Shown in pieces: positions 67 through 980 of a DNA stretch of 60,114 nt (its first letter is position 1; every line of letters begins with the position of its first letter). Origin of the DNA: Bacteroidia bacterium (GTDB lineage: Bacteria; Bacteroidota; Bacteroidia; B-17B0; Aurantibacillaceae); contig JALHRL010000024.1 of the NCBI GenBank assembly GCA_022841465.1, positions 1-60,114 on the forward strand, written 5' to 3'. Under the pieces are notes generated by a model. That model saw only the letters and a list, made by a program, of their open reading frames with translations. It searched no databases and was not told the DNA's origin. A program made the translations under genes and the position numbers.

Positions 67-292
67 TTTTTTTGTCTACCGAAATGTCGTCCCCGCTATG
101 AGTGCTAACGTTTGGCGAATAGACCCAGGCGGGCTTACGAAGCATCACCTGTCTTAACCCACCAAAGGTTATTTGAAGATACTTAGTTTTTTAGTGAGCC
201 GCAAATAAATTGTCTGCCGCTTTAATGCGCGCGAACGATGACCGAGTTCGCCCGCTTGGGTTTATTTGCTGTTATAGGGCGTTTTTTTACTA
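67..292. repeat. structured spacer with a long imperfect inverted repeat
   Basis: No gene is seen here. The arm at 115-134 pairs with 250-269 (17 of 20 positions complementary). The outer words also pair loosely: GTTATAGGGC at 271-280 with CTATG and CTAAC words around 96-109. A second perfect 9-bp partner of 261-269 lies at 201-209 (GCAAATAAA), so two foldings compete. The spacer is richer in G+C than the flanking genes. Layout resembles a recombination-site or cassette-boundary hairpin, but canonical integron core words (RYYYAAC/GTTRRRY) are not cleanly present. Confidence 0.6.
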
Positions 293-856
293 TTAATTAG
301 TATTTTCTTCAATGGTCTGTCGATATTCTTTGCTCCATATTTGGTAGGAAAAATAAAGAAAGGAAGTAAATATAAGTCCGTAAATTATATATAAAGGTCT
401 TACTACTATTTCTCTGAATGTATTGTAAAAAGAAACATTGTAAAATTGACATAAGTTATGAAATGTTGCTAAAAAACTTGCAACAATAACAACTCTGACC
501 AAAACGTATCCGGTATGTGCTATTAGTGTTTTTTTGTTTTTTGGTATTTTATAGAATACTTCATAAAAACGTCCCTTCTCGTTAAAGTATAATTCTGAAA
601 CAAAGTCGGTCAGATTATTTGATGAGGAATATTTTGTCTGTTTATACTTAAACGAATAGAAGTAGAACGCATAAATAATTAGTCCAACGACAATTATATT
701 AGCAACAATTAAACCAGTCCAACCAACACCAAAAAGTCTGTATAATGGATTTGTTTCACCTTCTGGGTTGTCAAAAAACCAAAGGCTTGTCGAATAGAAG
801 TCACACCCTCTTGCGAAGAGAAGAAGAAATGTCAGAATGAAAAATTTTAATTTCAT
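293..856 (-). CDS. small integral membrane protein, DUF5658-like N-terminus
   Basis: 187 residues with four hydrophobic segments at about 3-16, 45-68, 112-133 and 152-172. The first segment is followed by D19, T23, E34 and NPL (36-38), a spacing that resembles the D-x3-T ... E-x-NPL signature of DUF5658-type membrane proteins; this match is by eye and the rest of the protein is not recognised. Function unknown. The gene is bracketed by near-perfect inverted boxes (271-280 and 894-903) and structured spacers, unlike any other gene in the window, which suggests an acquired unit. Confidence is high that it is coding and low for the family. Confidence 0.7.
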   Translation of the reverse strand: MKLKFFILTFLLLFARGCDFYSTSLWFFDNPEGETNPLYRLFGVGWTGLIVANIIVVGLIIYAFYFYSFKYKQTKYSSSNNLTDFVSELYFNEKGRFYEVFYKIPKNKKTLIAHTGYVLVRVVIVASFLATFHNLCQFYNVSFYNTFREIVVRPLYIIYGLIFTSFLYFSYQIWSKEYRQTIEENTN

Positions 857-879
857 GAATTTATTTTTTGAACTTGTAC

Positions 880-980
880 TGTCGTCCTAAAATGCCCTAT
901 AACTAGCATATAGGCGCTACTTTATAGCGCTTATCTTGCAGTTTTAGCAAGATTGGCGCTATTGGTTGGCGCTTATTGGC
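880..980. repeat. structured spacer: inverted box, hairpin and tandem words
   Basis: TGTCGTCC at 880-887 is identical to 85-92. GCCCTATAAC at 894-903 is the exact inverse of GTTATAGGGC at 271-280. A hairpin follows: 926-939 pairs with 947-960 (12 of 14) around a 7-nt loop. The right arm runs into a near-tandem duplication of TTGGCGCTATTGG (953-965) and TTGGCGCTTATTGG (966-979). It is the right-hand counterpart of the spacer at 67-292. Confidence 0.6.

Follow-up and report, generated by a model that had tools for sequence, protein, structure and literature searches.

In integrons, the start of each gene cassette pairs with the end of its own attC site. According to the excerpted text of PMC2727003, the R' and R'' boxes of known integrons self-pair over 9-11 nt, and the extrahelical bases and the unpaired central spacer of classical attC sites serve strand choice and efficiency. 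The extrahelical bases are accommodated by a 20-residue insert (I2), which the available part of PMC4792948 describes as not identified elsewhere and as suggested to have been gained by an Xer-like ancestor. Surveys recognise integrons by IntI: matches with the additional domain or the intI patch were chosen in one survey (PMC2426708, in part), and IntegronFinder searches integrase profiles (PMC9024848, in part). A class of recombinase lacking the additional domain would be missed as an integron, its cassette genes included. The Bacteroidota are listed among integron-bearing phyla (PMC8618304 and PMC9668308, excerpts), and one complete integron, in Salinibacter ruber M1, has been reported from the Bacteroidetes proper after earlier integrase-only finds (PMC9024848, in part). 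In the open-licence PMC literature searched, we found no description of cassette arrays served by a non-IntI enzyme of the kind analysed here.

We analysed a 60,114-nt stretch of DNA (hereafter the window) from a Bacteroidia genome, near one end of which a single gene lies between inverted boxes. It has the appearance of the leading cassette in a long array of exchangeable genes. Our preferred reading (probability of about 0.8) is that this cassette heads an integron-like array, moved by a non-IntI tyrosine recombinase that is encoded on another contig of the same genome (hereafter C2).

The boxed gene and its landing site

The whole cassette occupies positions 109-902 on the minus strand, with putative crossover points at G903/T902 and at G109/T108 of that strand; the former boundary is set by identity with another genome (G012, see below) and the latter by the attC-like site. 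It begins with a start box (TTATAGGGC, 894-902) that is complementary to the end box of the same cassette, followed by a 187-aa gene (293-856) without a Pfam or NCBIfam family in profile searches, whose product is hydrophobic by eye and probably a membrane protein. The attC-like hairpin site (101-280) follows, recognised by an nhmmer match (274-105) and by arm pairing: it comprises the R'' box (GCCCTATAAC, 280-271), two arms (270-250 and 134-114), an unpaired spacer and an R' box containing G109/T108. Positions 1-108, judging from sequence and array order, hold the start of the next cassette (TTAGCACTCAT..., with an ATG at 63), which is cut by the contig end. On the other side lies an attI-like landing site (903-977) without an adjoining recombinase gene, identified by a 29-nt core identical on C2 and a third contig (C3) and by the attI alignment. 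A ChaN-like gene (1061-1933; Pfam PF04187, E 6.6e-56) flanks the array from outside.

Homologues of the cassette gene with 66-68% identity (L062:10305-10853 and L063:11643-12185) are present in two relatives, G014 and G027, with no recognisable arrays around them. The gene therefore also lives as an ordinary gene, which counts against the cassette interpretation, and for the same reason these loci offer no empty site.

The preliminary description had delimited a 633-bp unit (271-903) by the boxes GTTATAGGGC (271-280) and GCCCTATAAC (894-903), which are indeed present and exactly inverse, the left one being the R'' box named above. With flanking bases added, it matched them at 13 of 14 letters with one inserted base; no such insertion is needed because the pair extends ungapped to 15 nt (271-285 with 889-903, 93% complementary). 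Its statement that such ends are confined to this one gene of the window does not quite hold, since exact 10-nt inverted pairs with at least five G+C and 500-800 nt apart occur three times in the 60-kb window, this pair included. Taken alone, the box pair is not beyond chance. It becomes significant because GTTATAGGGC, found at five places in the 3.77-Mb genome, recurs outside the window only on an array contig (two places in the window, three on contig C32), and because complementarity within the own cassette holds across cassettes. The ends of the unit had been misplaced: the left hairpin (~101-280) is part of the cassette itself, as its attC-like site, so that the unit spans 109-902. Of the two hairpins reported outside the boxes, only the right one, the attI-like landing site, lies outside the cassette. 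Folded as DNA, the right hairpin has a z of -3.38; the left region as a whole has a z of only -0.96, yet its two arms pair well.

C2 carries, in this order, a tyrosine recombinase gene, a HigB-type gene, a helix-turn-helix gene, a hairpin ending TATATGCTAG|TT and a cassette, i.e. the integron order of an attI beside a recombinase with a first cassette behind it. In the window this hairpin recurs with its end at 903, immediately ahead of the window cassette. The HigB-toxin-type and helix-turn-helix genes between recombinase and attI resemble a toxin-antitoxin pair (L052:3788-4441). A third attI copy lies on C3 (L214:3282-3349), 13 nt from the contig end and with no recombinase in the preceding 3.3 kb. 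The genome contains three copies with an identical 29-nt core, one of which adjoins a recombinase, and one recombinase of the linked family was found. The preliminary description could not have included this gene, which is outside the window. C2 does not fit a CALIN, i.e. a cluster of attC sites with no array-linked integrase, because it has a recombinase, an attI and a first cassette; the C2 recombinase is not an IntI, and the attI of the window has none alongside.

In another species (G012), the last 106 nt of a contig, beginning at G|TT, are an identical copy of the start of the window cassette, and the attI preceding them is clearly different from that of the window. An identical cassette start with a different outer flank is what a cassette predicts, and this identity behind another attI is the best evidence of mobility. 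In other species, a DNA search with 7.2 kb of the array mainly hit attC fragments, along with one acetyltransferase gene; this is suggestive of exchange.

We compared attI sites among relatives. The attI usually lies ~90-105 nt after the recombinase stop; elsewhere the gap is 119-244 nt, or 661-943 nt if genes lie in between. A 274-aa ORF lies between recombinase and attI in G012 (L053:12527-13351), and G008 and G019 also have a coding sequence in this interval. In a hand-curated alignment of 47 sites (with hand-picked named loci, second candidates used for G012, G008 and G010, and others dropped, e.g. G017, G035, G036b and G001c), the letters of the box-like stretches covary between species: in the inverted pair closest to the crossover, pairing reaches 0.69 of cells, against a mean of 0.54 and a maximum of 0.605 for shuffled partners (1000 shuffles).

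Private boxes and attC-like hairpin sites

On contig C32, units of ~0.3-2 kb, most of them with a single gene, have hairpins of ~130-190 nt between them, and each of the C32 units that were read has its own complementary boxes at start and end. An nhmmer search seeded with seven of the C32 hairpins and run on 21 loci detected 57 hairpins, 51 of them in loci of the own genome, where they occupy a single strand within each contig. One peptidase cassette contains ten consecutive N (L006:5304-5313).

Boxes were compared in the 31 cassettes whose ends were both set automatically (30 from the own genome and one from a relative). At letters 4-10, the start box agreed with the inverse of the own end box in 160/217 positions, and 0/10,000 permutations were as good. 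Over these seven letters, own pairs had a mean match of 5.16, pairs from different cassettes one of 3.04, and the two ends of single array hairpins one of 2.65 (37 hairpins). The common prefix, whose first three letters are given by construction, reaches at least seven letters in 23 cassettes and 3-5 letters in the other eight. The longest ORF runs in the array sense in 29/31. These are one-way arrays of single-gene cassettes in which R'' complements the opening bases of its own cassette, as in integrons.

The stems were analysed in 51 elements (45 from the own genome and six from relatives), in which AAC and G|TT are 117-185 nt apart. Their main stems contain 732 Watson-Crick pairs, plus 103 bottom-strand and 20 top-strand wobbles; by wobble, 41 elements favour the bottom strand, one favours the top and nine are equal. 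Arms pair better with their own partners than with swapped ones (mean score 26.5 vs 15.5), and the computed energy of the arms is more stable for the bottom strand in 48/51, falling to only 38/51 (with two ties) for whole sites. Folding of the bottom attC strand is thus indicated by sequence and computed energy only. One stem position has A opposite C on the sense strand in 42/51 elements, with A always on the left, and therefore T.G on the bottom strand; this conserved wobble may be a strand mark. The unpaired spacer is present in these sites. The extrahelical bases of integron attC stems are mostly missing from them: 37/51 stems have no bulged base, two of these only because an alignment was not obtained. 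One bulged base is possible, by eye, in sites of Flavobacterium palustre. No Rfam family reached its gathering score in six loci; a DUF805 RNA match at L006:10586-10655 is sub-threshold (33.1 vs 51.1 bits).

The array, the private boxes, the orientation and the bottom-strand bias are evident from the sequence. The suggestion in the preliminary description of a mobile or recombination-mobilised cassette is supported by the 51 sister hairpins, the cassette-private boxes, the G012 identity and a recombinase beside the same landing site elsewhere in the genome.

The linked recombinase and its distribution

The C2 recombinase matches the IntI profile TIGR02249 below its cut-off and in two pieces, with positions ~178-239 missing, and no IntI over this cut-off was found in the 40 genus genomes, the own genome included. 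The first catalytic-arginine motif and HxxRH are 133 residues apart in every measurable IntI (20 of 21) and 91-92 residues apart in every measurable family member (41 of 42; these are 15 genus recombinases and 27 scan loci, the set also used for the tree), so the IntI-specific additional domain is absent. The spacing is 91-93 in eight other genus recombinases and 98 in the Xer of the window. Because genus recombinases without a recognised attI share the 91-93 spacing, the missing insert alone marks no integron function. A quick tree places IntI on one side of a branch with SH-aLRT 99. The sole Xer row in it is the window's own gene, on a long branch that gives a distant root; the root is unsure because E. 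coli XerD, with a motif outside the pattern used, was left out and one Xer row remained.

Both recombinase proteins tested passed the cut-off of the XerA-type family NF040815 in NCBIfam (225.3 vs 220 bits). We used an AlphaFold2 model of the F. palustre member (pLDDT 86.6) for structural comparison. The top Foldseek match was the integron integrase IntI4 on attC (2a3v, E 1.2e-15), and VIA-align ranked an archaeal Xer first (4a8e, Z 24.9, rmsd 7.5, 251 aligned), with IntI4 2a3v at Z 20.2, rmsd 5.6 and 255 aligned.

An extra N-terminal stretch of ~65+ residues precedes the usual domains and weakly resembles the HARP domain of SMARCAL1. HARP belongs to an annealing helicase that acts on branched DNA. 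Among ten N-terminal pieces, Pfam HARP (PF07443) matched two with E 2.2e-5 and 7e-5, three with E 0.0021-0.022 and five not at all; the best score is 24.3 against a 25-bit cut-off, the protein of the own genome has no match, and at E up to 1 the match appears in 7/37 proteins. A structural search of the N-terminus gave 4o66 first, as a weak match (E 0.8). The VIA-align search with the whole model, which barely probes the N-terminal part, gave no HARP chain. Three genus recombinases with a similar N-terminal stretch (G015b, G027 and G035; L093, L094 and L089) have no recognised attI downstream.

A scan of genome contigs for the recombinase, of which the best 80 of 585 loci were kept, gave mostly Bacteroidota. 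Among 75 genus and scan loci with at least 900 nt behind the recombinase (at least one genome being counted twice), 37 have a possible attI box that pairs exactly over 9 nt with an R'' box further on, against 4/75 in a reversed-box control; the other 38 have no exact pair, and some of the 37 resemble chance (e.g. G061a, G001c and L153). Isolates with a box pair include F. palustre, F. psychrophilum DSM 3660, F. cheongpyeongense, Algoriphagus ornithinivorans and Membranihabitans maritimus. Eleven loci were chosen for a test of chained cassettes, ten for a box pair in the 75-locus comparison and L147 for one found separately, and every one yielded one or more cassettes with a paired hairpin. Five chained cassettes with sites of 113-120 nt are present in F. 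cheongpyeongense, four in Arundinibacter roseus, and two each in F. psychrophilum and a Pedobacter metagenome assembly.

At the class level, A1-like recombinases (E up to 1e-60) occur in 197 of 395 genomes, a count that does not imply the presence of arrays. A relative with 56% identity is encoded on a 57-kb plasmid of Chryseobacterium oryzae (L183), with no box pair behind it. Relatives are also present in records titled Spirochaetes, Deltaproteobacteria, Nitrospirae, WOR-3 and Fusibacter (L155, L166, L142, L154 and L177), L155 having an exact box pair. A search of a phage collection covered the best 20 of 1854 records. Three further features can be read directly from the assemblies: recombinase, attI and first cassette are linked, the IntI-specific insert is missing, and one identical cassette start lies behind two different attI sites.

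Proposed reaction, alternatives and known systems

From these features we infer that the recombination reaction takes place, what the HARP-like domain does and that the enzyme also acts in trans. The recombinase would most likely join the folded bottom strand of an attC-like hairpin to a double-stranded attI-like site, with exchange between G and TT, so that circular cassettes would move in or out singly and always the same way round. Once a cassette is a free circle, its opening bases and its R'' box would meet in one hairpin site, and each cassette would therefore need private complementary boxes, i.e. those first noticed around the window gene. Strand choice may rest on the conserved T.G wobble and the unpaired spacer, the HARP-like N-terminal domain could grip the folded single strand, and attI copies without a recombinase gene alongside would be served in trans.

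Two alternatives assign the arrays to another recombinase. The cassettes could belong to an ordinary integron or CALIN, made and moved by a canonical IntI that lies elsewhere in the genome, was lost or is missing from the assembly. The arrays, private boxes and bottom-strand bias do resemble those of classical cassettes, IntI passes the cut-off in 84/296 genomes of the phylum, and the present genome is in 125 contigs. However, the cut-off is passed in 0/40 genomes of the genus and 1/395 of the class, on which ground a canonical IntI was rejected; moreover, a different recombinase is linked to attI and the first cassette at many loci, and the stems mostly lack bulged bases, so we regard this explanation as improbable. 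Hitch-hiking on the chromosome-dimer Xer of the host, with the linked recombinase doing other work (e.g. as an invertase or mobile-element integrase), seems to us just as improbable. The linked enzyme itself passes the XerA-type NF040815 cut-off and an Xer-like gene lies in the window near 23.1-23.9 kb, but the box pairs start at the attI directly behind the linked recombinase, usually ~90-105 nt past its stop, and the letters of the attI boxes covary between species.

Other alternatives dispense with site-specific cassette recombination. That the hairpins are terminators or RNA elements behind genes would agree with their position after genes and with the commonness of intergenic RNA hairpins. 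Yet they pair better as the non-message strand, the bottom strand having G.T at positions that are A.C in the sense strand, and match no Rfam family at gathering score in six loci, for which reasons this origin was rejected; it would also leave unexplained the private box pairs and the G012 identity behind another attI, and is thus very unlikely. A transposon or MITE with short terminal inverted repeats would account for inverted boxes enclosing a single gene, but its copies would share their ends, whereas here each cassette has its own pair and the units stand head to tail in one orientation. This candidate was rejected on these grounds and its chance is close to negligible.

An integron-like array moved by the linked recombinase remains our preferred reading. 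Judged by its sequences, the system works like an integron yet stands outside the IntI-defined family, the additional domain being absent and the bulges mostly absent. We lean towards the broader view that it represents a second, IntI-independent integron lineage widespread in the Bacteroidia, in which a HARP-like-fused Xer/XerA-like recombinase without I2 would move cassettes via folded single-stranded sites, with polarity given by a conserved wobble rather than by extrahelical bases, and which might be either near-ancestral or an independent invention. A natural system appears to handle cassettes without the I2 insert, which has been regarded as essential to integrons, and mostly without bulged bases, and the old question of the origin of, and need for, this insert becomes testable with it.

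Compared with Vibrio-type chromosomal (sedentary) integrons with IntI, the present system shares the recombinase, attI, one-way array, palindromic attC and bottom-strand bias. It differs in that (i) the recombinase has no IntI-specific insert and has an extra N-terminal domain; (ii) the main stems are mostly unbulged and have a conserved wobble; (iii) the recombinase is transcribed towards the array; and (iv) three attI copies accompany the one recombinase of the linked family that was found. Treponema integrons are described with intI in the source text available in part, whereas no IntI cut-off is passed by the present enzyme, in 40 genus genomes. The S. ruber M1 integron was, according to the excerpted report, found by a program with IntI profiles, and IntI passes its cut-off in only 1/395 genomes of the present class. 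CTXphi integration by XerCD (PMC4792948, in part) likewise uses Xer-type enzymes without I2 and a folded single strand without extrahelical bases, but, unlike the present system, has no cassettes, array or dedicated recombinase. XerA-type recombinases (NF040815) are close in that their cut-off is passed and the structure is near that of archaeal Xer; the present enzyme is set apart from them by its extra N-terminal domain and by its linkage to attI and cassettes.
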